DNA from: Croceibacterium mercuriale
Lineage (GTDB): Bacteria; Pseudomonadota; Alphaproteobacteria; Sphingomonadales; Sphingomonadaceae
Direction of reading: 5' to 3'
Assembly (NCBI RefSeq): GCF_000802385.1
Contig: NZ_JTDN01000002.1
Location: 930,001 to 994,000, forward strand
Length of the DNA: 64,000 nt
Position numbers and translations under genes: made by a program. Every line of letters begins with the position of its first letter. Position 1 is the stretch's first letter. The notes beneath the pieces were generated by a model. It was given only the letters and a program-made list of their open reading frames with translations. It ran no database searches and was not told the origin of the DNA. Below are positions 15,804-54,160 of this stretch, piece after piece.

Positions 15804-16963
15804 GCCCCGCGCTGCAGCGCATCGCCGCCAGTCCCACCACCGCCATGACCGACCGGGCCAGCGCGCTCCGGGCCGAGGGGCGCGACATCATCTCGCTCTC
15901 CGTGGGGGAGCCCGACTTTGCCACCCCGCCGCATGTGCTGGCCGCCGCCCATGCCGCACTGGATGCAGGTGACACGCGCTACACGCCGGTGACCGGCACC
16001 GCGACGCTCAAGGCCGCCGCCGCACTGCATTTCGCGCGCGATCTGGCGCTGCCGACCGACCCGGCGCAGGTGATCGTCACCGCCGGCGGCAAGCAGGCGA
16101 TCTTCGAGGCGCTGGCGGCCACGGTGGGGCCGGGCGACGAGGTCATCATTCCCGCGCCCTGGTGGGTATCCTACCCCCAGATGGTCCGCTTCGCCGGCGG
16201 CACCGTGGTCCCGCTGCAGACCAGCGCGGCCGACGGCTTCCGGTTCGATGCGGCGACACTGGAGGCGCTGATCACGCCGCGTACGCGCTGGCTACTGCTG
16301 AACAGCCCCGGCAATCCGACCGGTGCGGTGTTCCCGGCCGCGATGCTGGACGATATGGCCGCGGTATTGCGGCGCCATCCGCACGTGCTGGTCATGTCGG
16401 ACGATATCTATGCGCCGCTGATCTATACCGGCGCCCCGCATGTGACGCTGGCCGCGCGCCAGCCCGACTTGGCGCCGCGTGTGCTGACCGTGTCCGGCGT
16501 GTCCAAGAGCCATGCGATGACCGGCTTCCGCATCGGGGTCGCCACCGGTCCGGCCTGGCTGGTCGAGGCGCTGGGGCGATTGCAATCCAACGCCTGCGGC
16601 AATCCCGCCTCCATCAGCCAGGCAGCGGCGGTGGCGGCCTTTGCCGGACCGCAGGATTTCCTGGCCGACTGGCGGGAGACGTTCCGCCGCCGGCGCGATC
16701 AGGTGGTGGCGGCGGTGAACGCGGTACCCGGCCTGTCGACGCCGGTACCCGACGGCGCGTTCTATTGCCTGGTGGATGCCGCACCGTTGCAAGACCGGTT
16801 CGGCGGCGACGACAATGCGCTGGCGCTACACCTGCTCGAAGCTGGCGTAGCGGTGGTCGCGGCCAGTGCCTTTGGCGGCACGTTCGGCTTTCGTATCAGC
16901 TTCGCCGCGGACGAGGCAGTGCTGGCAGCGGCCATGACGCGGATTGCCGCTGCGCTGGTATAA
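15791..16963 (+). CDS. class I/II aspartate aminotransferase-like PLP enzyme
   Basis: A 390-residue fold-type I aminotransferase of the aspartate aminotransferase subgroup I-gamma. Conserved features are GEPDFATP near the start, NSPGNPTG in the middle, and the PLP-binding lysine Lys239 in SGVSKSHAMTGFRIG. It likely moves an amino group between aspartate (or an aromatic or branched amino acid) and 2-oxoglutarate in the cytosol; the exact donor cannot be read from sequence. It overlaps the pabBC stop by 13 bases and so shares its transcript. Confidence 0.9.
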   Translation: MPYLSPALQRIAASPTTAMTDRASALRAEGRDIISLSVGEPDFATPPHVLAAAHAALDAGDTRYTPVTGTATLKAAAALHFARDLALPTDPAQVIVTAGGKQAIFEALAATVGPGDEVIIPAPWWVSYPQMVRFAGGTVVPLQTSAADGFRFDAATLEALITPRTRWLLLNSPGNPTGAVFPAAMLDDMAAVLRRHPHVLVMSDDIYAPLIYTGAPHVTLAARQPDLAPRVLTVSGVSKSHAMTGFRIGVATGPAWLVEALGRLQSNACGNPASISQAAAVAAFAGPQDFLADWRETFRRRRDQVVAAVNAVPGLSTPVPDGAFYCLVDAAPLQDRFGGDDNALALHLLEAGVAVVAASAFGGTFGFRISFAADEAVLAAAMTRIAAALV

Positions 16964-16971
16964 CCACAATG

Positions 16972-16997
16972 GCGATGTTTCCCCGGGGAAACATCGC
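16972..16997. repeat. 26-bp perfect palindrome between convergent genes
   Basis: GCGATGTTTCCCC followed immediately by its exact reverse complement, with no spacer. It lies 8 bases after the aminotransferase stop and 2 bases before the uvsE stop. No T-run follows, so it may be a cruciform or mRNA-end hairpin, or a protein-binding dyad. Confidence 0.75.
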
Positions 16998-34541: not shown

Positions 34542-34600
34542 CGATTGCGTAACCCGCGCGGGCACGGCAGACTGTTACCGATAACAAAGGACGGAACAGG

Positions 34601-36280
34601 ATGCGGAACCGGATCGGCATGGCGTTGGCGGGGCTTGCGCTCGCGCTGGGCATCAGCGGCACGGGCAGGGCGCAGGACCTGCCCCGGCTGGAGCAGCGCG
34701 GCGCGGCGACGCAGCTGATCGTCGATGGCGCGCCGTTCCTGATCCTGGGCGGGGAGACCGCCAATTCCAGCACCAGCGATGCCGCCTACATGGAACCGGT
34801 CTGGCCGCGGCTGAAGGCGATGCACCTCAACACCGTGCTGGTGCCGGTCGCGTGGGAGACGGTCGAGCCGGAGGAGAGCCGGTTCGACTGGCGCAACCTG
34901 GACGGCATGCTGGAACAGGCGCGGGCGCATGACATGCGGCTGGTGCTGCTATGGTTCGGATCGTGGAAGAACACCTTCTCCAGCTATGTGCCCAGTTGGG
35001 TCAAGCGGGACCAGGAGCGGTTTGCCCGGGTCGAGCTGAGCGACGGACGCGGGACGGAACGGCTGACCCCGTTCAGCACCGCGGCGCGCGATGCCGATGC
35101 GCGCACCTTTGCCGAGCTGATGCGCCATCTGCGCTCAGTGGATGGCGAGCGGCAGACCGTGCTGATGGTGCAGGTGGAGAACGAGGTCGGCACCATCCCG
35201 CAGTCGCGTGACCATTCGCCCGCGGCGGAGGCGGCCTTCGCCGGCCCGGTCCCGTCCGCACTGATGCAGCACCTGGCGGCCAACCGCCCCCGGCTGAACC
35301 GCGACCTGCGCGCCGCGTGGGAGGATGCCGGCGGCCTGACGGAAGGAAGCTGGCAACAGGTGTTCGGCAGCGGATCGATGACCGACAGCCTGTTCATGGC
35401 CTGGCATTATGCCACCTTCCTGGAAGGGGTGACTGCGGCGGGGAAGGCACAATATGCGCTGCCGATGTTCACCAATGCCGCGCTGATCCGGCCGAACTAC
35501 GAACCCGGGCAGTACAATTCCGGCGGGCCCCTGCCGCACGCGCTGGACATCTGGCGCGCAGGGGCGCCGAGCCTCGATTTCTTCTCGCCCGACATCTACT
35601 TCGACGATTTCGGCGGATGGGCGGCGCAATATGCGGTGCCGGGCAACCCGCTGTTCGTGCCGGAGGCGCGCGGCGGGCCGGAAGGTGCGGCCAATGCGCT
35701 GTATGCCTATGGCTCGTTGCGGGCGATCGGCTTCTCGCCCTTCGGCATCGATGGCGCCGCCGCACCGCCGGCGGCGGGCGATGCGAGCATCGGGGTGGGC
35801 ACCGGCAGTGCGGACGATACAGCGATCGCCGGCCTCTATGCGCGGCTGGCACCCCTGGCACCCCTGCTGCTGCAGAAGCAGGCAGAGGGTCAGGCCAGCA
35901 CGATCATCATGGAAGGCGCCGCGCAGCGCGCCGGGCGCTTGCGGGTCGGCGAATACACCGTGAACATGGTGCGGGCCGAAGGGCCGGACGGTCGCGTCGA
36001 CACGAGCAGCCGGGTGGCGGCCATGTTCCTGCAGACCGCCCCGGATGCCTTCACGGTGGTGGGCAGCGGCGATGCCGTCATCACCTTCACCGCCGATACG
36101 CCGGGCCCCGGGATCGTGGGGCTGGACAGTATCGACGAACTGGTGCTGCGCGATGGCCGGCTGGTGCGCGGGCGCCGGCTGAACGGCGACGAGAACGGGC
36201 AGGGGCAGGTGCTGCGCCTCCATACCAAGGACGCCGCCGAGGGACGGGTGCACGAGGTCAAGCTGTACCGCTACCGGTGA
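34601..36280 (+). CDS. GH35 beta-galactosidase-like glycoside hydrolase, exported
   Basis: A 559-residue secreted or periplasmic enzyme with signal peptide MRNRIGMALAGLALALGISG. The (beta/alpha)8 barrel has the GH35-type start FLILGGETANSS, the acid/base site VQVENEVG (Glu195 in the Asn-Glu pair) and the likely nucleophile Glu355 in FVPEARGG. The C-terminal ~170 residues match the DUF5597-type beta-domain found on this bacterial GH35 branch. GH35 enzymes remove terminal beta-galactose; galactan side chains of rhamnogalacturonan would fit the rest of the locus, but the linkage cannot be read from sequence. It follows the arm A TonB receptor. Confidence 0.85.
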   Translation: MRNRIGMALAGLALALGISGTGRAQDLPRLEQRGAATQLIVDGAPFLILGGETANSSTSDAAYMEPVWPRLKAMHLNTVLVPVAWETVEPEESRFDWRNLDGMLEQARAHDMRLVLLWFGSWKNTFSSYVPSWVKRDQERFARVELSDGRGTERLTPFSTAARDADARTFAELMRHLRSVDGERQTVLMVQVENEVGTIPQSRDHSPAAEAAFAGPVPSALMQHLAANRPRLNRDLRAAWEDAGGLTEGSWQQVFGSGSMTDSLFMAWHYATFLEGVTAAGKAQYALPMFTNAALIRPNYEPGQYNSGGPLPHALDIWRAGAPSLDFFSPDIYFDDFGGWAAQYAVPGNPLFVPEARGGPEGAANALYAYGSLRAIGFSPFGIDGAAAPPAAGDASIGVGTGSADDTAIAGLYARLAPLAPLLLQKQAEGQASTIIMEGAAQRAGRLRVGEYTVNMVRAEGPDGRVDTSSRVAAMFLQTAPDAFTVVGSGDAVITFTADTPGPGIVGLDSIDELVLRDGRLVRGRRLNGDENGQGQVLRLHTKDAAEGRVHEVKLYRYR

Positions 36281-41395: not shown

Positions 41396-44122
41396 TCAAA
41401 GCCGGGCGCGGAAGCCGAGGGCGAAGGTACGCGTGAAAAGCAGGGTGTCACGCGGGTACAGGTACTCGTCGCCGAAGTAGGTCCGGATGATGCTGTTGGT
41501 GAGGTTGGCGGCGTCGAACACCACGGTGAGGTCGGGATTGATGTCGTAGGCGATCGACAGGTCCAGGTTCTGCACCGCGCTCCGGCGGAAATCGTTCGGA
41601 TTGACCCCGGTGAAATGCAGCCCCGTGCTGTAGCCGTCGCGCCAGACATACGAGGCTCGCGCCGACAGCCCGTCCTTTTCGTAGATGAGCGTGCCGCTGG
41701 CCGAGTATTTCGAAACGTTGGCGAAGGGCAGCGTGAGGTATCCGGTGACGCCCGGCAGCGGCGCAAGGGCCCGGTTCTCGCCATCTATGAAGGTGCCGTT
41801 GGCGCTGACCCCGAACCCATCCAGGAACTCCGGGAAGTAGGTGAAGCCGCCTTCGATGCCCGTCAGCTTGCCGGTGCCCGAATTTTCCGGGCGCGAGATC
41901 TGGTAGGTGCCGTTGTCGGGCCCGAGATAGTCGATCTGGAAATTGCTGGTGACCGACTGGATGAAGCCGGTCACATCCCGGTGGAAGACGGTCGCCGTGA
42001 TCGAGCTGGACGCATCGATGTACCATTCCAGTGCCAGATCGTAATTGGTGGATTCGACCGGCTGCAGCTCGGCATTGCCGCTCGATCCGCGGCCGAATGG
42101 CTGCTGGCCGGGCACCGGCGGCGTCAGCGTCAGGGCAGGGTTCAGTTGCGCAAAGCTGGGCCGCGTGATCGTCTTGCTGGCAGCTGCCCGCAGGAACAGC
42201 CCGTCGGCCAGGCGATAGCGCAGGGCGATGTTGGGCAGCACATCCGTGCTGCTGCTGGCGATCCGCACCGGTTCGACCGCGGTTCCCAGCGCCCTGAACG
42301 CGTTGGAAACCGTGTCGACCTGCACGATCCGGATACCGGCCTGCCCGTCCAGGGCGCCCAGTTCGTAACTCGCCTGGGCGTAGCCGGCATAGCTTTTCTC
42401 CGTGATGTCGAAGAAGCGGCGATCCTCGAATTGCGGGTCGCCGGATGGCAGGCCGAAGCGTTCGCGCAGCACATCGATGTTGTCGAGCAGGTAGTCGGTC
42501 GACGGGGACACCCACGACTGGATGAACGGGCGCCGGTCTTCGAAGAAGCCGCCCGGTTTGCGCAGCAGCAGGCCGGGAATGCTGTCGGCCCGGACGGTCA
42601 GGCAAGGGACGGCCCCGGTGGCCGAGCAGTTCACGTTCTGCACGAAGGAACGCGACGTTGCGTCCCGCTGGTTCACGCGGGCGCCGATCGCCAGTTCGGT
42701 GAAGATCCACAGCGGGTCGCTGTAGGTCACGTCCCCGCGCCAGGTATATTCCTGACCCAGCGCCTCCGTCTCCGTCAGGTTCAGGCGTGCAAGATTGTAC
42801 CTAGAGAAATCCGCCGGATCGTCGAACGGCAGCACGAATGTCGGGGTGCCGTTCGAACGGTCGAAGACGCCGTCGGTCCGCCGGGCGAGGAAATCGATGT
42901 CGAGGATGTAGTCGCGGTCGGCCGCTTCGGAGCGGGTGTACGAGACCTCCGACGCGATCGACAGGCCGCCATCCTCCCACGCTCCGCCCAGCGCGCCCTG
43001 CAGCCGGTCGGCATGATTGTGGTAGGTGATGCCATAGTTCGCCACCCGGTTGTTGAGCAGGCTGATCCGCTCCACCAGCTTCGTGTCGTCCACGAAGGTC
43101 AGCGGCTCGGCCAGCCGGCCGTTCATCGACGTGAAGTTCTGGTCGCCGTTCCCCTTGTCCCGGAACCCGTAGAACAGGCCATCGAAGAACAGGGTCAGGC
43201 GGTCGTCGGGGGCCCATTGCAACGATGTGTTCACGGCCGGCCGCTCGCGCCGGCCGATCGCATCCACGCCGCCGATCACGTCGCTGTGGAAGACCCGCGG
43301 TTCGGCGGCACTGGTACCGCGCGGGTCCAGCGGAACGCCGGGCGTATAGGGTGCCCGGCTGTTGTCGGGATTGTACCCGAAATAGCCACCATTGAAGATC
43401 GTCTGGTCGCGATAGTCGGTCCGCTGGTACGACAGCGCCACCAGTGCGCCAATGTCGCCGATGCCCGTTGACCAGCGGTCCGACAGCAGCGCGCTGACGT
43501 AGGGATTGAACGAATCCGACTGCTCCGCATAGACGCCGCGCGCGGACACGGCGAAGCGCGCGCCTTCGAAGTCGAAGGGGCGGCGGGTGCGAACGTTGAT
43601 GAGCCCGGCGATGCCGCCTTCGATCTGGTCGGCCGAGCGCGACTTGTAGACGTCCACCCCGGCGACGAGATCGGCCGGCACGTCGGCCAGCGACAGCGAG
43701 CGGCCGGTGGTGCTGAAGATGTTGCGGCCGTTGATGACCGTCAGCACATCGGGCAGGCCGCGGACCAGCACCGTGCTGGATTCTCCGCGGAACCTTGGTG
43801 CCACCTGCACGCCGGGTACGCGCTGCAGCGCCTCCACCACATTGTTGTCCGGCAGCTTGCCGATGTCCTCAGCCACCACCGAGTCCACGATCTGCCGCGC
43901 GTTGCGCTTGATGGCCTGGGCGGAAGAAAGGCTGGCCCGGACGCCGGTCACGACGATCTCGGCAGCAGCGGAGGCCGACGTCGCGCCTGGACTCTCCGGC
44001 GCAGCCGGAGTGCCGGCAGCAACCGTGCCATCGCCCGCCCGCTGCGCCATCGTGGCTGGTGCCAGGGAAAAGCCGATGGCTAGTGCAGACACGCTGCCCA
44101 GCGTTCGATGAAGCCTGCTCAT
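41396..44122 (-). CDS. TonB-dependent receptor, Xanthomonas/Caulobacter carbohydrate class (arm B)
   Basis: A 908-residue outer-membrane transporter with signal peptide ending near APATMAQ, the TonB-box and class signature EIVVTGVRASLSSAQAIKR, VVAEDIGKLPDNNVVEALQRVPGV in the plug, and a long beta-barrel ending in FTRTFALGFRARL. The terminal residue is leucine, not the usual phenylalanine. The signature is that of the TonB-Xanth-Caul class, which imports oligosaccharides. It is the first gene of arm B, 26 bases ahead of the GH39 gene. Its promoter region contains the perfect GntR-type operator at 44176-44190. Confidence 0.94.
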   Translation of the reverse strand: MSRLHRTLGSVSALAIGFSLAPATMAQRAGDGTVAAGTPAAPESPGATSASAAAEIVVTGVRASLSSAQAIKRNARQIVDSVVAEDIGKLPDNNVVEALQRVPGVQVAPRFRGESSTVLVRGLPDVLTVINGRNIFSTTGRSLSLADVPADLVAGVDVYKSRSADQIEGGIAGLINVRTRRPFDFEGARFAVSARGVYAEQSDSFNPYVSALLSDRWSTGIGDIGALVALSYQRTDYRDQTIFNGGYFGYNPDNSRAPYTPGVPLDPRGTSAAEPRVFHSDVIGGVDAIGRRERPAVNTSLQWAPDDRLTLFFDGLFYGFRDKGNGDQNFTSMNGRLAEPLTFVDDTKLVERISLLNNRVANYGITYHNHADRLQGALGGAWEDGGLSIASEVSYTRSEAADRDYILDIDFLARRTDGVFDRSNGTPTFVLPFDDPADFSRYNLARLNLTETEALGQEYTWRGDVTYSDPLWIFTELAIGARVNQRDATSRSFVQNVNCSATGAVPCLTVRADSIPGLLLRKPGGFFEDRRPFIQSWVSPSTDYLLDNIDVLRERFGLPSGDPQFEDRRFFDITEKSYAGYAQASYELGALDGQAGIRIVQVDTVSNAFRALGTAVEPVRIASSSTDVLPNIALRYRLADGLFLRAAASKTITRPSFAQLNPALTLTPPVPGQQPFGRGSSGNAELQPVESTNYDLALEWYIDASSSITATVFHRDVTGFIQSVTSNFQIDYLGPDNGTYQISRPENSGTGKLTGIEGGFTYFPEFLDGFGVSANGTFIDGENRALAPLPGVTGYLTLPFANVSKYSASGTLIYEKDGLSARASYVWRDGYSTGLHFTGVNPNDFRRSAVQNLDLSIAYDINPDLTVVFDAANLTNSIIRTYFGDEYLYPRDTLLFTRTFALGFRARL

Positions 44123-44175
44123 CTTCCTGTCCTCTCCTGTCCACGGCTTTGCCGCATGTTGTTGCAGTCTGCTAA

Positions 44176-44190
44176 TCTGGTAGGACCAGA
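44176..44190. promoter_or_regulatory. FadR/GntR operator in the arm B promoter
   Basis: TCTGGT-AGG-ACCAGA is a perfect 6-3-6 palindrome fitting the FadR-subfamily pattern TNGTNNNACNA. On the minus strand a TTGCCA -35-like hexamer lies next to it (44192-44197), so the site sits in the spacer of the arm B promoter. The GntR gene is directly adjacent. Confidence 0.75.
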
Positions 44191-44240
44191 ATGGCAAGAG
44201 CCTGTCTGCGAGATGAGCTTTACCTGTTCATTAGCCAGCA

Positions 44241-44255
44241 TCTGGTACGACAGGA
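44241..44255. promoter_or_regulatory. second, imperfect GntR operator copy
   Basis: TCTGGT-ACG-ACAGGA matches the perfect operator at 12 of 15 positions and lies 50 bases downstream of the end of it, ahead of the GntR start. It may give autoregulation or cooperative binding. Spacing between centres is 65 bases. Confidence 0.5.
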
Positions 44256-44314
44256 TCATGCTGCGCCCGCATGGCCGCTTGACCTTTGCCGAGCTTGTCG
44301 AGCATTGTGCGGCG

Positions 44315-45043
44315 ATGACGGCGGACGAAGCCCATCCCAGCAGCAAGCGGCCGGCCGACATCCGCGGCAGGGTCACGCATGACCTGGGTGTGGCGATCGT
44401 GACGGGTCGGCTGGCGCCGGGCGCCGCGCTGATGAGCGAGGAGCGGTTCAGCGCGGAGAATGGCATCTCCCGCGGCGCCTATCGCGAGGCACTGAAGATC
44501 CTTGCCGCGAAGGGCCTGGTGCATCAGCGGGTCAAGAGCGCCACGCGCGTGAACGAGCGCATCAGGTGGAGCATGCTTGACCTGGATGTACTGGGATGGA
44601 TGTTCGAGGGCGGTGCCAGCCGGGACTTCATCAACGGCATCTTCGAACTGCGCCGGATCGTCGAGCCATCCGCGGCCGCGCTGGCCGCGCGGCGACGCGA
44701 CGATCGCCAGCTTGCCCGTATGGGGCATGCGCTGGAAGAGATGGAGCGCAACGGCCTTCACGCCAGCGCCGGGCGGCAGGCCGACCAGGCCTTCCACCTC
44801 GCCATTCTGGAAGCGACGCGCAACGAGCCGCTGATGACGCTGTCGAACTCGATCGCGGCCGCAGTGGAGTGGACCACCCGCTTCGCCCGTGACCAGCGCG
44901 GGCAGAAACGCGACCCCATGCCCGATCATCACGCGGTCTATTCCGCGATCGTCGCGGGCGATCACCAGGGCGCGCGCGCAGCGATGGAGACGCTGATCGA
45001 CAACGCCTTGCACGATGCCGACATGGTCCTCGCCAGCGGCTAG
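44315..45043 (+). CDS. GntR-family (FadR subfamily) transcriptional regulator
   Basis: A 242-residue regulator. The N-terminal winged helix reads RPADIRGRVTHDLGVAIVTGRLAPG, SEERFSAENGISRGAYREALKILAAKGLV; the C-terminal all-helical FCD/FadR effector domain has the metal-site pattern (FELRRIVEPSAAALAA ... DQAFHLAILEATRNEPL ... DHHAVYSAIVAGDHQGA). The ATG at 44315 (MTADEAHPSS) is chosen because it begins just before the conserved domain; in-frame ATGs at 44213 and 44258 would run through the operator region. It diverges from arm B and precedes arm C, so it likely represses arm B and is released by a sugar-acid effector. Confidence 0.9.
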   Translation: MTADEAHPSSKRPADIRGRVTHDLGVAIVTGRLAPGAALMSEERFSAENGISRGAYREALKILAAKGLVHQRVKSATRVNERIRWSMLDLDVLGWMFEGGASRDFINGIFELRRIVEPSAAALAARRRDDRQLARMGHALEEMERNGLHASAGRQADQAFHLAILEATRNEPLMTLSNSIAAAVEWTTRFARDQRGQKRDPMPDHHAVYSAIVAGDHQGARAAMETLIDNALHDADMVLASG

Positions 45044-45095
45044 TCCGCCGACAGGTTCTTCTGTTTGACAGGACGATCCGGCGGAGTCACAACCA

Positions 45096-45128
45096 TTGAC
45101 GGGACACCGGTGTCCGGATGCATCCGGA
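45096..45128 (+). promoter_or_regulatory. promoter with LacI-type operator and overlapping second palindrome (arm C)
   Basis: A -35-like TTGACG (45096-45101) is followed by the perfect 14-bp palindrome GGACACCGGTGTCC (45102-45115, central CG as in LacI operators) filling the spacer, and a weak -10-like TGCATC at 45119. A second perfect palindrome, TCCGGATGCATCCGGA (45113-45128), overlaps it by three bases. A LacI gene closes arm C, so repression by it is likely. Confidence 0.7.
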
Positions 45129-45160
45129 CTCAGAAGCCGGGACCATGGGAGGTTGTTGAA

Positions 45161-48049
45161 ATGCGCATTGCTCGTTCGCGGCTGCGGGCCGCGTCTGCCT
45201 TGCTGTCCGGAACCCTGACAGCCGCGCTGCCCCTTGCTGCCGCCGCGCAGGTGGCACCCGGGGCCGATCCGGCGGTACAGCTCCCCGATCCGGTGGAGCC
45301 GTCGATCGCGGACGAGGGCGCTGGCGAGATCGTCGTGACCGGTTTTCGTGGAAGCCTGGCGCGTGCGCTGGAGATCAAGCGCGAAAGCAACGCCGTGGTC
45401 GACTCCATCGTGGCGGAGGACATCGCCAAGTTCCCGGACAACAACCTGGCCGAATCCATCCAGCGCGTGCCCGGCGTGACCATTACCCGCGACGGCGGGG
45501 AAGGGCGCAACATCTCCGTCCGCGGGCTTGGCCCGGATTTCACCCGCGTGCGGATCAACGGGATCGAGGCGCAGGCGACCACCGGCTCCAATCGCGGCCG
45601 CGGCTTCGACTTCAACGTTTTCGCCTCGGAGCTGTTCAACCAGATCGACGTACGCAAGACGCCCTCCGCCAATGTGGAGGAAGGATCCCTGGGCGCGACG
45701 GTCGACCTGCATACCGGCCGGCCGTTCGACACCGCCGGTTCGGTGCTCGCCGCATCGGCGCAGGCCGGGTACAACGATCTGGCGGAAGCGGCCGATCCGC
45801 GCTTCGCCGTCCTGGGCAGCACGCGGTGGGATACCGGCATCGGCGAGCTCGGTGTCTCCGCCTCCGTCGCCTATTCCGAGAAGACGACGCTGCAGAACGG
45901 CGTGTCCACGGTGGGCTGGCAGCAGGGCAATGCCGATGGCGGGTTCTGCAATCCGGCAACCAACGCCGCACTGTGCGCCGGCACGAACCCGAGCGCCTAC
46001 CAGCTCGCCAGCCAGCCGACGACCCGGTACCCGCGCTTCCTGCGATACCAGGACTACAATCTGGAAACACAGCGCATCGGCGTCACCGGCTCGCTGCAAT
46101 GGCGTCCCCAGCCCGAAACCACCATCACCCTCGACGCGCTGTTCTCGCGTTTCGAAGGCGAGCGCAACGAACGGCAGCTGGAAGCGATCTCGCTCAGCCG
46201 TCCGGCATCGACCGGCGGCAAGCCGGAGGTGGTCGTCCGCGATATCGAGGTCGATGAGAACGGTACCGCGCTGTACATGCTGCTCGACAACATGGACATC
46301 CGGTCCGAAAACTACTTGGACCGGTACGACACCACGTTCCAGCAATATACGCTGGGCGTGGAGCACGAGTTCAGCGACCGGTTCCGGGCCAGCGTGCTTG
46401 CCGGATATGTGAACAACGATTTCAACAACGCGTACGACTACATCGCGCAAATGGATCGGCAGAACGTCGACGGCTACTCCTACGACATGCGCGAGACCGG
46501 GCAGAACTTCCCGGTGATCGACTACAATTTCGACGTCACCGACCCGAACCAGTGGTATATCGGCCCGACCCGCATCGCACCCGGCGGCGGCACCGGCCGC
46601 AGTGGGCCGGATATCCGCCTGCGCCCGAACTGGAACGAGAACACCTACAAGACCGCGCAGTTCGACGTGTCCTACGAGTTGAGCGACGCGCTGACGCTGA
46701 CGGGCGGGCTGCAGTACAAGACCTACGAATTCGTCGGCGAGGGGCAGCGCTTCGCCCTGGGCGAGGGCAACATTCCCGCGCTGCCCGCCGGCACCGGCGT
46801 GGCCGACGTGACCGAGCTGTATTGCGGGTTCGAAGGGCTGGACGTGCCGGCCGGCACCGACACCTGCTGGCTGACGCCAAACCTGCAGGCGATCGCCGAT
46901 GCGTATGGCGTGTTCGGCGGCAATGACCGCTTCGCCCTGTCCGGCACCACCGCCAGCGCACGGGGCGACAACCGCACGGTGGAGGAGAAGGATTTCGGCG
47001 GCTACATCCAGCTGCAGTTCAATTTCGATGCCTGGGGCGTGCCGGTCCGCGGTGATGTGGGCTACCGGCGGGTTCGCACCAGGCAGGAATCGGGCTTCTT
47101 CACCACGGTGCCCACCACGGTGAATCCGTCCGGGTTCGAATGGACGGTGGTCGGCCGGTCCTACAATGACGATCTGCCATCGCTGAACCTGGTGGTGGAG
47201 CCGGTCGATGACGTGCTGGTGCGGTTCGGCGCCGCCAAGGTGATGGCGCGCCCCGGACTGGGCAGCATCTCCGCGGCGACGAATGTGTCGGTGGCGGGTG
47301 CGTCCCGCTCCGTCTCCACCGGCAACCCGTTCCTGGAACCGTTCCGCGCCAAGACCTTCGACTTCGCGGTCGAATGGTACCCTTCGGCCGGTTCGATCCT
47401 GTCGGCCGGGTTCTTCTACAAGGACGTGTCGACTTATGTGCAGAGCGTGACGCGGGCGGCACCGTTCTCGTCCACCGGTCTGCCGGACTCGCTGCTGGCC
47501 GGCACAGGCGTGACCGCGGCGGACGAGTTCCAGATATCCAACGTGATCAACACGCCGGGCGGCCCGCTCAAGGGGCTGGAACTGAACTTCCAGCAGGCGC
47601 TGACCTTCCTGCCGGGCTTCCTGTCCAACCTGGGGCTGCTGGCGAACTACACCTATGTCGATTCCGACATCGACTACTTCGTGACCGCGCCGAACGGAAC
47701 GCAGATCACCGTCAGCCAGCCGCTGCTGAACCTGTCCAAGAACGCCTTCAACGCGACGATCTACTACGAAAGCGGGCCGTTCCAGGCGCGTGTATCGGGC
47801 ACTTATCGTGACGGATACCTGACGGCGGTGCCGGCGGCGTACAACACCGATGTCTCCGGCGTGGAGTCGACAACCTTTGTCGATTTCTCGCTGTCGTACC
47901 GCATCATCGAGAACCTGACGCTGAGCCTGGAAGGAATCAACCTGACCAACGAGCCGACGGTGTCGTACAACGACTCGGTGGCCCAGCGGGTCGGTGACTA
48001 TCTGCAGAGCGGGCGTCAGTTCTACGCCGGCGTCCGCTACAGCTTCTGA
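45161..48049 (+). CDS. TonB-dependent receptor, Xanthomonas/Caulobacter carbohydrate class (arm C)
   Basis: A 962-residue outer-membrane transporter. GGGAGG precedes the ATG. The signal peptide ends near LAAAAQ; the class signature EIVVTGFRGSLARALEIKR and the plug stretch VVAEDIAKFPDNNLAESIQRVPGVTITRDGGEGRNISVRGLG parts are textbook TonB-Xanth-Caul. The barrel ends QFYAGVRYSF with the terminal phenylalanine. It probably imports oligogalacturonides or rhamnogalacturonan fragments, judged from the GH28 genes that follow. The stop overlaps the ATG of the first GH28 gene by one base (TGATG). Confidence 0.95.
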   Translation: MRIARSRLRAASALLSGTLTAALPLAAAAQVAPGADPAVQLPDPVEPSIADEGAGEIVVTGFRGSLARALEIKRESNAVVDSIVAEDIAKFPDNNLAESIQRVPGVTITRDGGEGRNISVRGLGPDFTRVRINGIEAQATTGSNRGRGFDFNVFASELFNQIDVRKTPSANVEEGSLGATVDLHTGRPFDTAGSVLAASAQAGYNDLAEAADPRFAVLGSTRWDTGIGELGVSASVAYSEKTTLQNGVSTVGWQQGNADGGFCNPATNAALCAGTNPSAYQLASQPTTRYPRFLRYQDYNLETQRIGVTGSLQWRPQPETTITLDALFSRFEGERNERQLEAISLSRPASTGGKPEVVVRDIEVDENGTALYMLLDNMDIRSENYLDRYDTTFQQYTLGVEHEFSDRFRASVLAGYVNNDFNNAYDYIAQMDRQNVDGYSYDMRETGQNFPVIDYNFDVTDPNQWYIGPTRIAPGGGTGRSGPDIRLRPNWNENTYKTAQFDVSYELSDALTLTGGLQYKTYEFVGEGQRFALGEGNIPALPAGTGVADVTELYCGFEGLDVPAGTDTCWLTPNLQAIADAYGVFGGNDRFALSGTTASARGDNRTVEEKDFGGYIQLQFNFDAWGVPVRGDVGYRRVRTRQESGFFTTVPTTVNPSGFEWTVVGRSYNDDLPSLNLVVEPVDDVLVRFGAAKVMARPGLGSISAATNVSVAGASRSVSTGNPFLEPFRAKTFDFAVEWYPSAGSILSAGFFYKDVSTYVQSVTRAAPFSSTGLPDSLLAGTGVTAADEFQISNVINTPGGPLKGLELNFQQALTFLPGFLSNLGLLANYTYVDSDIDYFVTAPNGTQITVSQPLLNLSKNAFNATIYYESGPFQARVSGTYRDGYLTAVPAAYNTDVSGVESTTFVDFSLSYRIIENLTLSLEGINLTNEPTVSYNDSVAQRVGDYLQSGRQFYAGVRYSF

Positions 48050-49494
48050 TGCGCCACTCTGCCTCCCCGACACGCCGCCAGCTGCTGGGCGGCGGCTGCG
48101 CGGCCATGATAGTCACGGCCACCGCCGGACGGGCGCAGACGCCCGATCCGGCAGACCCCTGGGCAGAGGCGGCGCAGATCCGCCAGCGGATCGTGCCACC
48201 GCGCTTCCCCCATGCGAACAGCTTCACCCCGCAGCAGTTCGGCGGCGTGCCCGATGGCAGCACGCTGGCGACCGATGCCATCGCGCAGGCGATTGCGGCG
48301 GCGTCGGCCGCGCCCGGCGGCGGGCGCGTGGTGGTGGGTGGCGGCATCTGGCTGACCGGGCCGATCCGTCTGCTGTCCGGCGTGGAGCTGCATGTGGACC
48401 GGGACAGCACCTTGCGTTTCTCGCAGGATCCCGCGCTCTACTTCCCGCCGATCCTGACGCGGATGGAGGGGAACGAGCTGATGGGCATAGCGCCCTTCAT
48501 CCACGCGCTGGAGGCGGAGAACATCGCCATCACCGGCGGCGGCGTGCTGGACGGGCAGGCCGACGAACAGCATTGGTGGGACCGGGCGCGCCGGCCGGCA
48601 GATAACGGGGAAAGCGACGGGCGGCGGCTGCGCCGGCTGGCGGAGGAAGGCGTGCCGGTGGCCGAGCGGGTGTTCGGGCCAGATACCACCATCCGCCCGC
48701 AATTCATCCAGCCCTATCGCTGCCGCAACGTGCTGATCGAAGGGGTGACCATCATCCGTTCGCCCATGTGGGAGATCCACCCGGTGGAGTGCGAGAACGT
48801 GACCGTGCGGCGCGTCACCATCTCCAGCCACGGGCCGAACAATGATGGCTGCGATCCGGAAAGCTGCCGCGACGTGCTGATCGAGGATTGCCTGTTCGAT
48901 ACGGGCGACGATTGCATCGCCATCAAGTCGGGTCGCAACGCCGACGGGCGCCGCCTGAACCGCCCGACGGAAAACGTGATCGTGTCCGGCTGCACCATGC
49001 TGGACGGGCATGGCGGCGTGACGCTGGGGAGCGAGATCAGTGGCGGGGTGCGCAACGTCTTTGTCGAGAACTGCCGCATGGACAGCCCGCAGCTGAACAC
49101 CGCGATCCGGTTCAAGAACAATGCGGTGCGCGGCGGCACGCTGGAAAACATCCATGTGCGCGACGTGACCGTAGGGCAGGTTGGCCGTGCGGCGATCACC
49201 GTGGACTACAATTACGAAGAAGGCGCGGACGGCCCCTATACACCGGTGTTCGACGGCCTGACGGTGCAACGGATGCTGGTCGGCCGGTGCGAGCGGGTGC
49301 TGGACCTGCAAGGCTTCGCCCACGCGCCGATCCGCAACGTGCTGCTGCAGGACGTGACCGTCGTACGCGCGGCAGAACCCGACATCGTCGAGCATGTCGA
49401 AGGGCTGCACTATGCCAATGTCAGCCGCAACGGCGTGGCGGTGCGCGGGCCGACGCCGGGTGGAATGCCCCGGCGTGCCGGCCGGTCGGGCTGA
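48049..49494 (+). CDS. GH28 polygalacturonase-family hydrolase with intact catalytic motifs
   Basis: A 481-residue exported right-handed beta-helix enzyme with a twin-arginine-like signal (TRRQLLGGGCAA). The four GH28 motifs are present in order: NND at 264-266 (in NNDGCDP), DD at 287-288 (TGDDCIAIKSG), GHG at 320-322 (DGHGGVTLGSE) and R-F-K at 354-356 in place of R-I-K. These residues hydrolyse alpha-1,4 galacturonosyl linkages by inversion, typically exo-acting in bacterial enzymes of this size. It is translationally coupled to the TonB receptor. Exo-polygalacturonase is the best guess; activity on rhamnogalacturonan is possible. Confidence 0.92.
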   Translation: MRHSASPTRRQLLGGGCAAMIVTATAGRAQTPDPADPWAEAAQIRQRIVPPRFPHANSFTPQQFGGVPDGSTLATDAIAQAIAAASAAPGGGRVVVGGGIWLTGPIRLLSGVELHVDRDSTLRFSQDPALYFPPILTRMEGNELMGIAPFIHALEAENIAITGGGVLDGQADEQHWWDRARRPADNGESDGRRLRRLAEEGVPVAERVFGPDTTIRPQFIQPYRCRNVLIEGVTIIRSPMWEIHPVECENVTVRRVTISSHGPNNDGCDPESCRDVLIEDCLFDTGDDCIAIKSGRNADGRRLNRPTENVIVSGCTMLDGHGGVTLGSEISGGVRNVFVENCRMDSPQLNTAIRFKNNAVRGGTLENIHVRDVTVGQVGRAAITVDYNYEEGADGPYTPVFDGLTVQRMLVGRCERVLDLQGFAHAPIRNVLLQDVTVVRAAEPDIVEHVEGLHYANVSRNGVAVRGPTPGGMPRRAGRSG

Positions 49495-49505
49495 AGGAGG
49501 AATTC

Positions 49506-51548
49506 ATGCGCCACCACGCCCTTGCCGCCAGCCTGGCATGCGCCGCCACGCTGCTGCTGGTGCAGCCCGCCACCGCGCAAGAGATGGCGCGGGACCGGCT
49601 GATCGCGCATCTGACCGCGCAGGCTCGCGAACAGGCGGCAGAGCGTCGCGCGGTGGTACAGGCGATCACCACGCCCGAGCAGGCGCGGCTGCGGCAGGTG
49701 CGGGTGCGCGCCATGCTGGCCGAGCTGATCGGGCCGGAGCGTGCGGCCGGGCCGGTGCGGGCGGAGGTGACCGGGCGTAGCGACGGGGATGGCTTCGGCG
49801 TGGAAAGCCTGTGGTACGAAAGCGTGCCCGGCTACCGCGTCACCGCAAATCTTTATCGTCCGGGTCGCGGCAACGGTCCGTTTCCGGCGATCATCATGCA
49901 GCCGGGGCATGGGGTGGACGGCAAGCTGGGCAACCATGCCTTTGCCGCGAACCTGGCGCGTGCCGGCTTTATCGTGCTGTCGATCGACATCGTCGGAGAA
50001 GGCGAGCGGATCCAGCACTACGATCCGGAGATCGGCGCCTCCAAGGTCGGGCGGCCGACCGGCGAACATTCGGTGGCGTTCGGCCAGGCGCTGCCGACCG
50101 GCGGGCATGTCTCGCGCTGGTTCATCCAGGATGCAATGCGCGGCGTCGATTACCTGATGAGCCTGCCGGAGGTGGATGACCGCCGGATCGGCGCCTTCGG
50201 CTGTTCGGGCGGCGGCACGATCACGGCCTATCTCGCCGCACTCGACCCGCGCATCGCAGCCACCGCGACCGCCTGCTACGTCAACGACTACGACCATCTG
50301 CTGGCACCGGGCGGGCCGGGTCCGCAGGATGCGGAACAGTCGATCCCGTTCTTCCTGGAACGCGGCCTGGACCTGCCCGACTGGATCGAGGCGGCGGCAC
50401 CACGCCCCTACGCCGTGGTGTCCACCACCGGCGACATGTTCCCGATCGCGGGCGCCCGCGCCGCTCATGCGGAAGCGGCGCGGTTCTACGCGATCATGGG
50501 TGCGGCCGACCGGATCACGATGATCGAAGGACCGGGCGGGCATGGCAATCTGCAGCCGATCGCGCCGCACATCATCGGCTTTTTCAATCGCTGGCTGCGT
50601 GATGATCCGGCCCAGCCCGCCTTTGTGACCATCCCGACCGGCGATCCGGCGCACCTGCTGGCGACGCCTGCCGGGCAACTGACGACCGCCCCTGATGGCG
50701 GCGACACGTTGCGGCAGGTGATCGCACGCGAAGCCCCGGTCCCCGCCGTGGCCTCCGCCGATTCCGCCTCCTTGCGTCAGGCGATCCGGGATGTCGCGCG
50801 CGTGCATGTGCTGCCCGGCGATCCCGCACCTGCCATGCAGGAAGGCGCGCCGGTCGACACCGATGGTCTGCGCACCTTGCCGCTCAGCTTCGCGGCGGCG
50901 CCCGACCTGGCGGTGAACGCGCTCTACGCCCGGGCGAGCGGGCGCGGGCGAAGGCCGACGCTGCTGGTGCTGCAAGCCCGGCCACAGGCGATCATGGCCC
51001 GCTGGCATGCCGCCGGCTGGAACGTGCTGGCGCTGGAGCCGCGCGGCGCTGGCGGGACGGAGGAGGCGAAGTCGCCGCTGACCGGTGACTGGACGCTGCT
51101 GTCCCTGCGCGCACTGCTGGTGGGGCAGACGCCGGTCGGGATGCGCACCGACGATGCCGTGGCGGCGCTGAACTGGCTGGCCGGTCGGCCGGAGGTCGGC
51201 CGGATCGAAGTGCTGGGCACGGGCGCGCTGGCACCGGTCGCGCTGCATGTCGGCGTGCTGGACGACCGGGTGGACGGGGTGACAGCGGTAAACGGGATTC
51301 TGCGCTATCGTGACTTCGTGGAACGCCCGCTCAGCCGCGACATGGCGGAGGTGAACCTGCCGGGCGTGCTGGCGCGCTACGACCTGCCCGACCTGATCAC
51401 CGCACTCGGCAAGCGTGTGGTGCTGGTGAACCCCGTCAGCAGCGTGGGCGAGCCGCTGCGTGCCGAGCAGGTCGCCGCGATCCTGCCTGCCGCACCGCGG
51501 GTCATCTTCCAGAGCCCGCGCGATCCGATCCTGCCCTCCGCAAGGTAA
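49506..51548 (+). CDS. exported two-domain alpha/beta hydrolase (esterase-like)
   Basis: A 680-residue exported protein (signal ending near VQPATAQE; GGAGGA precedes the ATG). Residues ~90-385 form an alpha/beta hydrolase of the acetylxylan-esterase/dienelactone-hydrolase-like group with nucleophile Ser234 in FGCSGGGTITAY and a likely histidine in GPGGHGNLQP. The C-terminal ~270 residues look like a second hydrolase fold whose nucleophile elbow reads LGTGAL, with Thr572 where serine is expected, so it is probably inactive. Between two GH28 genes, removal of acetyl or methyl groups from pectin is a reasonable inference. Confidence 0.82.
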   Translation: MRHHALAASLACAATLLLVQPATAQEMARDRLIAHLTAQAREQAAERRAVVQAITTPEQARLRQVRVRAMLAELIGPERAAGPVRAEVTGRSDGDGFGVESLWYESVPGYRVTANLYRPGRGNGPFPAIIMQPGHGVDGKLGNHAFAANLARAGFIVLSIDIVGEGERIQHYDPEIGASKVGRPTGEHSVAFGQALPTGGHVSRWFIQDAMRGVDYLMSLPEVDDRRIGAFGCSGGGTITAYLAALDPRIAATATACYVNDYDHLLAPGGPGPQDAEQSIPFFLERGLDLPDWIEAAAPRPYAVVSTTGDMFPIAGARAAHAEAARFYAIMGAADRITMIEGPGGHGNLQPIAPHIIGFFNRWLRDDPAQPAFVTIPTGDPAHLLATPAGQLTTAPDGGDTLRQVIAREAPVPAVASADSASLRQAIRDVARVHVLPGDPAPAMQEGAPVDTDGLRTLPLSFAAAPDLAVNALYARASGRGRRPTLLVLQARPQAIMARWHAAGWNVLALEPRGAGGTEEAKSPLTGDWTLLSLRALLVGQTPVGMRTDDAVAALNWLAGRPEVGRIEVLGTGALAPVALHVGVLDDRVDGVTAVNGILRYRDFVERPLSRDMAEVNLPGVLARYDLPDLITALGKRVVLVNPVSSVGEPLRAEQVAAILPAAPRVIFQSPRDPILPSAR

Positions 51549-51554
51549 TCATCC

Positions 51555-52976
51555 ATGTCCCAGACCGACCGCCGTTCGTTCCTTGCTGCCACCGCCATCG
51601 GCACTGTCGCCGCCGCGCTTCCGGCGACGGCCTTCGCGCAGCCTTCCGCGGCACCGGCCGCCCCGCAACTGCCCCAGCCGATGCCGGCGCGCGACACCGG
51701 CCTCAGGATCGATCCGCGCGAATTCGGGGCGGTGGTGGACGGCACGACCAAGGATACCGCCGCCGTCCAGCAGGCGCTGGATCGCTGCGCGGTGCTGGGC
51801 GGGGGCGAGGTGGTGCTGGCCGGCGGCACGTGGCTGGTCGGGGCCATCCGCGTGGGATCGCACACCACCTTGCGCGTGGAGGAAGGCGCCACACTGCAGG
51901 GATCGCCTGACCTGGCCGACTATCCGGTGCTGCAGGTGCGCTGGGAAGGGCGCTGGGTGCCTGGCCATATCGGGCTGGTCTGGGCGCAGGAGGCGCAGAA
52001 TGTCAGCCTGACGGGCAAGGGCCGCATCCTTGCCTCCGACGCGATCCCGGGCCGCGTGGCGCAATCGGGGCTGCGCCATCCGGCGCTGCTGGAATTCGTG
52101 GACGTGCGCGGCCTGTCCGTCACCGATCTCCATACGCAGCAGAACGACATGTGGTCGATCCACCCGGTCTATTGCGAGGATGCCGTGTTCCGCGGCCTGA
52201 CCGTGCATGGCCGCGCCGACGGCATCGATGTCGACAGCTGCCGCCGGGTGGTGATCGATCGCTGCGACTTCGACACGGTGGACGATTGCATCTCCCTGAA
52301 ATCAGGCCGGGGTATGGAGGGCAACACCATCGCCCGGCCGACAGAGGACGTGACCATCACCGACTGCGTGTTCCGCGACCAGCGCTGGGCCTGCATCGGC
52401 ATCGGCAGCGAGACTTCCGCCGGCATCCGCCGCGTGCTGGTGGAACGGTGCCAGTGCCTGAAGGCGCACACCTTCGCCATCTACCTCAAGACCCGCCCCG
52501 GGCGCGGCGCCTTCATCCGGGACATCACCATGCGCGACCTGGATGTCTCCGGCGCGGGCTACGGCTTCCTGCGGCTCAACTTCCTCGACAGCGGCAAGCA
52601 GGACCAGTTCCCGGTGGGCGGGGCGGACGGGATTCCCGACGTGGGCGGCTTCATCTTCGAACGGATCCGCGTGAAGGATGTGCCCATCCTGGTGGAGGCG
52701 GTGAACATCCATCCCGACAAGCCGGTGGACGGCTTCGTGCTGCGCGATCTCAGCGGCACCTGCGGGCACGGCATCACCCTCGCCAACATGCGCGACGTGG
52801 TGGTGGAGAATGTCGACGTGAAGGTATTCTCCGGCCCGCTGCTGGCGGTCAACAACGTCACCGGGCGCGGGCTGGTGGACACCGCGGCGCCGCTGGTGCC
52901 GACGGTCCGTCCGCCAGATATCGTGGCGGCCGATCCCCCTTATCGCCTGGGAATGACGACCGGCCGCCCGAACTGA
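51555..52976 (+). CDS. GH28-family protein with altered catalytic motifs
   Basis: A 473-residue exported beta-helix protein with a twin-arginine-like signal (DRRSFLAATAIG). It aligns with GH28 but departs from the polygalacturonase motifs: NTD is replaced by A-D-G (Asp222, with Asp225 and Asp227 following), DD is kept (243-244, VDDCISLKSG), GHG becomes W-A-C (278-280) and R-I-K becomes Y-L-K (310-312). Rhamnogalacturonases and other non-polygalacturonase GH28 enzymes also lack GHG, so a different substrate, such as the rhamnogalacturonan backbone, is likely. It starts 6 bases after the esterase-like gene. Confidence 0.85.
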   Translation: MSQTDRRSFLAATAIGTVAAALPATAFAQPSAAPAAPQLPQPMPARDTGLRIDPREFGAVVDGTTKDTAAVQQALDRCAVLGGGEVVLAGGTWLVGAIRVGSHTTLRVEEGATLQGSPDLADYPVLQVRWEGRWVPGHIGLVWAQEAQNVSLTGKGRILASDAIPGRVAQSGLRHPALLEFVDVRGLSVTDLHTQQNDMWSIHPVYCEDAVFRGLTVHGRADGIDVDSCRRVVIDRCDFDTVDDCISLKSGRGMEGNTIARPTEDVTITDCVFRDQRWACIGIGSETSAGIRRVLVERCQCLKAHTFAIYLKTRPGRGAFIRDITMRDLDVSGAGYGFLRLNFLDSGKQDQFPVGGADGIPDVGGFIFERIRVKDVPILVEAVNIHPDKPVDGFVLRDLSGTCGHGITLANMRDVVVENVDVKVFSGPLLAVNNVTGRGLVDTAAPLVPTVRPPDIVAADPPYRLGMTTGRPN

Positions 52977-53101: not shown

Positions 53102-54160
53102 ATGGCGGCGCCATCAACCGACAGCACGGGGCCAGATCCCGGCGGCAGGCGGCCGACGATCAACGACGTCGCGCATGCCGCGCAGGTTTCCAAGAAGACC
53201 GTCTCGCGTGTCATCAACCAGGTCGCCACCGTGCATCCGGACATGCGCGCGCGCGTGGAGCGCGCGATCGCCGAACTGGGTTTCCGGCCCAACCCGCAGG
53301 CGCGCAGCCTGGCCTTCGGCCGCGCCTTCCTGCTGGGCCTGATCTACGACAATCCCAGCCCGACCTATGTGGTGAACATGCAGCATGGCCTGCTGGACGG
53401 CCTGCGCGGCACGGGCATGGAACTGGTGGTGCATCCGTGCCGGCATGCCGCGCCCACCCTGCTGGAGGAGATCCGCGAATTCGTGGAGCGGCAGAGGCTG
53501 GCCGGGGTCGTGCTGCTGCCACCCTTGTCGGAGGACGAGCGGGTGATCGCCCTGCTGCGTTCCATCGGCTGTTCCTATGTCCGGATTGCCGCGCTGGCGC
53601 TGGACGAGCCGGGATCGATGGTGACCACCAACGATCACCTGGGCGCGGCCGAGGCGGGCGATCACCTGGCCCGGCTCGGCCACCGGCGCATCGCTCTGCT
53701 GCGCGGGCCGCCCTCGTTCCGCTCCTGCACGGTGCGCGGGCACGGTTTCATCGGGGCGCTGGCCGCGCACGGGATCACGCTTGATCCGGCGCTGGACCGG
53801 GACGGGGCCTATACCTTCGAATCCGGCGTGGAGGCCGGGCACGCGTTGCTGGCGCTGGCCGACCCGCCCACCGCGATCTTCGCGCTGAACGACGACATGG
53901 CGATCGGCGTGATGCAGGCTGCGCGGGAACGCGGGCTGGAATTGCCGCGAGATCTTTCGGTCGTGGGCTTCGACGACCTGCCGATGGCAGCGCGGGTGTG
54001 GCCCAATCTCACATCCGTGCGGTTGCCGATCCGTGACATGGGGCAGATGGCGGCGGAGAAGCTGCTGGCCCGGGTCAACGGCGTCGACCCGGCCGCGCTC
54101 GATCAGCCCGCAGTGTGCCCGGCCCTGGTCTTGCGTCAATCCGCCATCGCGCTGCCATGA
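53102..54160 (+). CDS. LacI-family transcriptional regulator
   Basis: A 352-residue repressor with an N-terminal helix-turn-helix (TINDVAHAAQVSKKTVSRVIN) and hinge (RPNPQARSLA), followed by a periplasmic-binding-protein-like sugar-sensing domain (LLGLIYDNPSPTYV ... FALNDDMAIGVMQAARERG ... LSVVGFDDLPMAARVWPNLTSVRLP). GGAGAAGGG precedes the ATG. It lies 125 bases after the second GH28 gene and may be cotranscribed or separately controlled. It likely binds the palindrome at 45102-45115, with a pectic sugar as inducer. Confidence 0.93.
   Translation: MAAPSTDSTGPDPGGRRPTINDVAHAAQVSKKTVSRVINQVATVHPDMRARVERAIAELGFRPNPQARSLAFGRAFLLGLIYDNPSPTYVVNMQHGLLDGLRGTGMELVVHPCRHAAPTLLEEIREFVERQRLAGVVLLPPLSEDERVIALLRSIGCSYVRIAALALDEPGSMVTTNDHLGAAEAGDHLARLGHRRIALLRGPPSFRSCTVRGHGFIGALAAHGITLDPALDRDGAYTFESGVEAGHALLALADPPTAIFALNDDMAIGVMQAARERGLELPRDLSVVGFDDLPMAARVWPNLTSVRLPIRDMGQMAAEKLLARVNGVDPAALDQPAVCPALVLRQSAIALP

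Follow-up and report, generated by a model that had tools for sequence, protein, structure and literature searches.

A predicted LacI-family operator ahead of a putative pectin-use operon of Croceibacterium mercuriale and the palindrome that overlaps it

The region ahead of a TonB-dependent receptor gene of Croceibacterium mercuriale contains two overlapping perfect palindromes, and the first of these, dyad 1 (GGACACCGGTGTCC, 45102-45115), is very probably an ordinary, well-supported predicted LacI operator. All positions without a contig name are those of the window, by which we mean the whole stretch of 64,000 nucleotides that was analysed. Our preferred reading, to which we give a probability of roughly 0.8, is that a KdgR-like LacI-family repressor of pectin use has dyad 1 as its operator and that the second palindrome, dyad 2 (GTCCGGATGCATCCGGAC, 45112-45129), stands outside this recurring switch. 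The evidence for dyad 1 as a predicted operator is its recurrence in relatives, not its symmetry. A preliminary description of this DNA had proposed a LacI operator here, and for dyad 1 this is supported by the gene of the regulator LacI 53102 (designated by its start position), which ends the operon behind the dyad, by the same arrangement in two relatives, and by the recurrence of the motif near related receptor genes as well as beside related lacI genes.

The genes concerned are listed in Table 1. No gap within the putative operon exceeds 11 bp as far as the second GH28 gene, and 125 bp lie ahead of lacI; judged from its gene content, the array receptor-GH28-esterase-GH28-lacI can be assumed to be a pectin/galacturonan operon. 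The genome G472 has the same operon order, and in S. parva two additional genes separate the operon from a lacI gene further downstream on the same strand, whose product is 74% identical to LacI 53102. On the upstream side, the window contains the FCD-type GntR gene and a divergent arm consisting of a receptor gene, a GH39 gene, an MFS transporter gene and an enolase-superfamily dehydratase-like gene.

Table 1. Window coordinates of the genes of the putative operon, of the adjacent regulator gene and of a candidate GntR site
Feature	Position	Strand	Remarks
TonB-dependent receptor gene (TIGR01782)	45161..48049	+	first gene of the putative operon
GH28 gene	48049..49494	+	Pfam match above cut-off; galacturonidase/polygalacturonase are the closest NCBIfam models, below cut-off
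Alpha/beta-hydrolase gene, acetyl xylan esterase-like (PF05448)	49506..51548	+	
Second GH28 gene	51555..52976	+	
LacI-family regulator gene	53102..54160	+	recognition helix VSKKTVSRVIN; last gene of the putative operon
FCD-type GntR regulator gene	44258..45043	+	directly upstream; reading frame open from 44108, start 44258 chosen
TCTGGTAGGACCAGA, candidate GntR operator	44176..44190		in the intergenic region of the divergent genes; no other exact copy in the genome

Both dyads are located in the 117-bp intergenic region between the end of the GntR gene at 45043 and the ATG of the receptor gene at 45161. Dyad 1 is an even perfect palindrome of 14 bp with a CG centre (GGACACC/GGTGTCC) at -59 to -46 relative to this start codon, dyad 2 is a perfect palindrome of 18 bp with a GC centre, and the two centres are 12 bp apart. 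Both palindromes named in the preliminary description are real. Dyad 2 was given there as 16 bp, and the overlap of three bases stated there holds for these inner 16 bp (45113-45128), whereas the full 18 bp of dyad 2 share four bases with dyad 1. Symmetry alone is little proof, since long palindromes are common by chance in a GC-rich window (GC content about 69%). In the window there are 16 perfect palindromes of at least 14 bp, whereas 100 dinucleotide shuffles have 13.5 on average, and for at least 18 bp the numbers are 2 and 1.28; with up to three mismatches, dyad 1 has 5 matches in the window against 5.1 expected by chance, and dyad 2 has one against 0.7. As these counts lie near the expectation and do not discriminate, palindrome statistics were rejected as a test of function. 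Overlapping pairs of palindromes with a summed length of at least 32 were found five times in all 100 shuffled windows together, and the dyad pair stands out within its 117 bp of intergenic DNA, but across a window of 64 kb it is nothing extraordinary.

A motif of the dyad 1 type, TGACACCGGTGTCA or in asymmetric form TGACACCGGTTWCC, recurs close to the start of TonB-dependent receptor genes that are related to this one. Our counts rest on a strict pattern, which with at most one mismatch and between -500 and +60 of the start was found at 18 of 80 receptor loci (the best 80 of 412 relatives) with 23 sites altogether; at these loci the reversed pattern gave no site, and an equal coding stretch gave none at up to one mismatch and two at two mismatches. 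At 30 further receptor loci, two of which are from this genome, a looser pattern detected 42 sites at 22 loci and its reversed control none, most of these loci encoding receptors of about 35-48% identity that are not orthologs. At the 80 loci, a motif looser than the strict pattern, which was used there for the spacings and for dyad 2, yielded 30 sites at 23 loci and 5 in the control, which was run without the CCGG filter used for the matches. Distances are estimates, since the position of each receptor start codon was obtained by extrapolation from the first residue in the match. The motif was absent from 62 of the best 80 of 412 loci with the strict pattern and from 8 of the 30 further loci with the looser one. 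The former are mostly betaproteobacterial with 37-45% identity, but also include three Caulobacterales loci with 57-59% (L051, L052, L056), and among the latter is the receptor of the same-genus genome G001 (L130, 55% identity). TGACACCGGTGTCA is present as exact copy in 7 of 397 family genomes, which were drawn from a larger group.

Sites of this type also occur in pairs. Ahead of the S. parva receptor gene (77% identity) TGACACCGGTGTCT and AGACACCGGTGTCT lie 32 bp apart, and that of G472 (also 77%) has two operators 35 bp apart, one with a mismatch to the looser pattern. Further pairs 30-32 bp apart occur at three loci (L069, L120, L144); elsewhere, spacings of at least 69 bp are found too, and one of 21 bp (L143). 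At the outer positions the operator of the window has G/C where many relatives show T/A. A literature search with the motif strings brought up no operator paper recognisable by title among the matches listed, and we do not claim that the motif is unpublished.

Within the window, dyad 1 is the sole strong match to the operator matrix, of which it is itself one of the sites, with 20.3 bits followed by 9.6 for the next; with a matrix of 130 sites from outside this genome, in which repeats from overlapping loci are possible, it scores 20.5. The sequence GACACCGGTGTC has exactly two copies in the genome, one at the dyad 1 locus and one inside a long reading frame. Exact copies of KGWMACCGGTKWCM are found at seven places including dyad 1, and with one mismatch the number rises to 47 compared to 8 for the reversed pattern. 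Three of the exact places are GGAAACCGGTGTCA/TGACACCGGTTTCC at C2:497797, 498955 and 502822, and these near-identical sites flank a second lacI gene, kduD with an adjacent sugar kinase gene, and a receptor gene followed by a pectin acetylesterase-like gene and a GH43 gene. This second pectin/KDG locus of the same genome (L046, 7798-12836; G000:C2:497.8-502.8 kb), with its three operators beside lacI, kduD and the receptor gene, is the probable core of the regulon. Moreover, TGACACCGGTGGCA (C2:81451) immediately precedes the matched part of a receptor behind a gene of the oligogalacturonate lyase family. The copies of KGWMACCGGTKWCM at C2:92340, 686180 and 720534 are situated within reading frames or at the end of one and were attributed to chance; the first is also just ahead of the next reading frame. 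Downstream of dyad 1, at a distance of 30 bp, which corresponds to the spacing of the operator pairs of relatives, the very weak operator-like sequence AGAAGCCGGGACCA (45132..45145) has a matrix score of -9.3, which is within the top 0.17% of window positions, and positions 45119 and 45109 score almost as well; to regard it as a possible decayed second operator is speculative, and it is suggestive at most. Elsewhere in the window, the LacI-like near-palindrome TGTTACCGATAACA (34573-34586) directly precedes the GH42/DUF5597 gene at 34601 and is maybe the operator of another LacI protein.

LacI 53102 has two orthologs in G472 with 66% and 65% identity, one of them encoded by the last gene of the matching operon. 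The second (65%; L199, 9008-10009) has no match to the receptor or GH28 proteins of the window within 19 kb, and the sole motif in its surroundings is one weak site with one mismatch, 5 kb away. In a tree that did not include S. parva, the LacI of the window and both G472 proteins group together (100/99), and the KdgR-like paralog of this genome, encoded at C2:497.9 kb, belongs to a separate clade; in this tree, the row L189 runs past its stop, and stop letters were dropped. The paralog is 51% identical to LacI 53102, and these two are the LacI proteins of this genome found at E 1e-70 or better, with 7 of 15 candidates scored. The core VSKKTVSR of the recognition helix is present in 36 of the 38 LacI proteins compared, and the remaining two, from Caulobacter, have VSLRTVSR together with the site TGACACCGGTATCA. 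Furthermore, the motif, mostly as asymmetric TGACACCGGTTWCC, is found within 1.5 kb of lacI at 27 of 30 LacI loci (53 sites, control 3), and it is present at 5 of 8 further LacI loci; within the same distance of the lacI genes of the window, of the G472 ortholog and of S. parva there is no motif. As a predicted operator, dyad 1 is best read as belonging to LacI 53102 in the first place and to the paralog in the second. Since both have the recognition helix in common, the regulator cannot be named with certainty.

That the operator is mainly served by the KdgR-like paralog and not by LacI 53102 would fit with this common helix and with the half-site that the paralog operators TGACACCGGTTTCC share with dyad 1. 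However, the sites beside paralog-type lacI genes mostly have the asymmetric form, whereas dyad 1 shares its symmetry with most sites of the orthologous operons, and in G472 and S. parva it is the ortholog of LacI 53102 that is encoded downstream of the operon, which makes this alternative rather unlikely.

With dyad 1 as operator of a pectin-use repressor, a LacI dimer would occupy 45102-45115 as long as no pectin-derived inducer is present, and would thereby block transcription of receptor-GH28-esterase-GH28-lacI. The repressor would most likely be LacI 53102, possibly also the paralog, and LacI 53102 would repress its own gene at the far end of the operon as well. A pectin breakdown product would then bind the repressor and lead to its release from the operator. 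The sequences, the recurrence of the motif, the gene order and the kinship of the proteins are direct observations, and what we infer in addition is binding by LacI, repression, the inducer and transcription as an operon, with repression and inducer being derived from gene content and knowledge of the family.

The promoter on which this repression would act was originally described as TTGACG and TGCATC with a spacer filled by the dyad. The two hexamers are at 45096-45101 and 45119-45124, dyad 1 covers 14 of the 17 bp between them, and the promoter itself is doubtful. TTGACG-N17-TGCATC agrees with the consensus at 5+2, i.e., 7 of 12 positions; TGCATC matches TATAAT at 2 of 6 positions and lacks A2 and T6 of the sigma-70 -10 hexamer, whereas an alternative, TTGACA-N17-CACAAC (45065-45093), reaches 6+3, i.e., 9 of 12, by hand count. 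A promoter scan of 44900-45200 accepted no promoter and rejected both candidates, and alphaproteobacterial promoters may deviate. In relatives such as S. parva, G472 and Phenylobacterium (L057) it is the left half of the operator itself that reads TTGACA; therefore, a -35-like sequence there is in part a by-product of the operator and should not be over-read in the window. Repression from dyad 1 would be possible with either promoter. GANTC, the CcrM-type methylation site, is found on both sides of the dyads (45084-45088 and 45127-45131) and 47 times in the window.

Dyad 2 has a GC centre and is not conserved, and in both respects it does not correspond to a LacI-family operator. A search for it elsewhere in the genome, as recommended in the preliminary description, gave no further copy within two mismatches, and at three mismatches there are two places compared to five for the reversed pattern. 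Its exact 16-mer TCCGGATGCATCCGGA is present in 3 of 397 family genomes including this one. The best match to this 16-mer has 4 mismatches in the 80 receptor promoters (best 80 of 412) and 5 in the other 29 of the 30 further promoters; in the related promoters listed, the best matches have 4-7 mismatches of 16, and those of G472 and S. parva contain no dyad 2-like palindrome. Loss of both dyads in close relatives had been named as a finding that would speak against the original proposal; dyad 1 recurs, and dyad 2 was not found in the promoters compared. The competition of two regulators or dimer-of-dimers site, which had been suggested because of the shared bases, is not supported, since dyad 2 is absent from these promoters and has a GC centre. 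Moreover, two LacI dimers with centres 12 bp apart would presumably clash, so that a dimer-of-dimers is unlikely, and the tight pairs of relatives are by contrast mostly spaced by 30-35 bp (one by 21). Among the copies compared, dyad 2 is a palindrome in that of this genome only, and chance is the most likely reading. As an 18-bp palindrome beside an operator is locally improbable by chance, dyad 2 may have a function.

One such function would be that of an RNA element, in which a GC-rich hairpin of 7 bp, close to the 5′ terminus of the receptor mRNA, would stabilise the transcript or tune translation. Dyad 2 alone folds at -10.5 kcal/mol, better than 200 of 200 shuffles, and the TTGACA-N17-CACAAC promoter would start at about 45100 and put the hairpin into the leader. 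However, the 76 nt from 45100 to 45175, taken together, do not exceed their shuffles in stability (z about 0, with 95 of the 200 folding equally well), no Rfam match up to E 1 was obtained in 44100-45300, and there is neither a T run nor a counterpart in related promoters, so this role is unlikely. The lack of a T run, together with the absence of any terminator found in 44900-45200, also led to the rejection of dyad 2 as intrinsic terminator. A 26-bp perfect palindrome at 16972-16997, GCGATGTTTCCCCGGGGAAACATCGC, lies between two convergent reading frames, whose ends are at 16963 and 17000, and is probably a two-way hairpin/terminator.

We consider it still less probable that dyad 2 is an operator for a different regulator, in competition with LacI for the common bases. 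It is an 18-bp perfect palindrome that overlaps the operator close to the start region, the GntR gene is directly upstream, and at the 80 receptor loci no reading frame was found to encode a relative of the GntR protein above 150 bits. Against this stand the absence of a second genomic copy within two mismatches and of dyad 2 from the related promoters compared, the rarity of its 16-mer in the family, its GC centre, which is not LacI-like, and the presence of relatives of the GntR protein with 48% identity in G472 and G001. Furthermore, a site at 44176, unique in the genome, is a better candidate for the GntR protein.

FCD GntR regulators bind sites of the TGGTNNNACCA type. No such core is present at 45044-45160, and dyad 2 does not conform to it; the window has three, at 16956, 44178 and 56399. 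The candidate at 44176-44190 is a perfect TCTGGTNNNACCAGA, and a weaker GntR-type site, TCTGGTACGACAGGA, is found at 44241-44255 between the divergent receptor gene and the FCD GntR gene; both are likely candidates for GntR operators of the left arm. With two mismatches the GntR-site pattern is not commoner in the genome than its reverse (97 versus 143). The GntR regulator as owner of dyad 2 is disfavoured by its own candidate site, and as dyad 2 does not have the features of a LacI operator either, no regulator is on offer for it. Very doubtful is finally the idea that dyad 2 is a recent strain-specific control element and took the place of the second LacI operator, which S. parva and G472 have at a distance of 32-35 bp, in which case LacI on dyad 1 and a private regulator or hairpin would exclude each other via the four common bases. 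Although the palindrome counts are near the shuffle expectation, it is highly improbable that both dyads are chance palindromes of GC-rich DNA, since dyad 1 recurs near related receptor starts and the reversed pattern does not.

In E. coli, the lac operator O1 is located in or beside the promoter core and repression occurs by occlusion. Dyad 1, read as a LacI operator, resembles O1 in its place in or next to a promoter core and in the occlusion that would result, but it is a CG-centred palindrome of 14 bp with no strong second operator in the window, and LacI 53102, with 352 aa, has no tetramerisation helix that we could see by eye. Most LacI-family sites are reported to be even palindromes with a CG centre, and the operators of carbohydrate regulons to lie 140-30 bp upstream of the first gene (PMC4052901). 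Dyad 1 agrees with both features, and it is conserved at orthologous genes with linkage to lacI in S. parva and G472. These regulons also resemble the locus studied here in a linked lacI gene and sugar-acid/pectin genes downstream; ExuR, KdgR, UxaR and UxuR are tabulated for glucuronate and galacturonate, and with the regulons named there the motif could not be matched (PMC4052901). The CUT loci of Xanthomonas with the LacI-type regulator SuxR likewise have genes for a receptor, for degradative enzymes and for a LacI/GalR repressor side by side, and a SuxR repressor mutant is reported to over-express the sux genes; there, however, the substrate is sucrose, whereas it is pectin/galacturonan by gene content here, and gene set and order differ (PMC1790865).

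Of two equally striking dyads, only one recurs in relatives, which underlines how little symmetry by itself can tell in DNA with a GC content of about 69%. The motif TGACACCGGTGTCA/TGACACCGGTTWCC provides an operator motif and a likely regulator for pectin-uptake operons in records of Sphingomonas, Caulobacter, Phenylobacterium and Asticcacaulis, and its assignment makes a scattered pectin regulon predictable from sequence.
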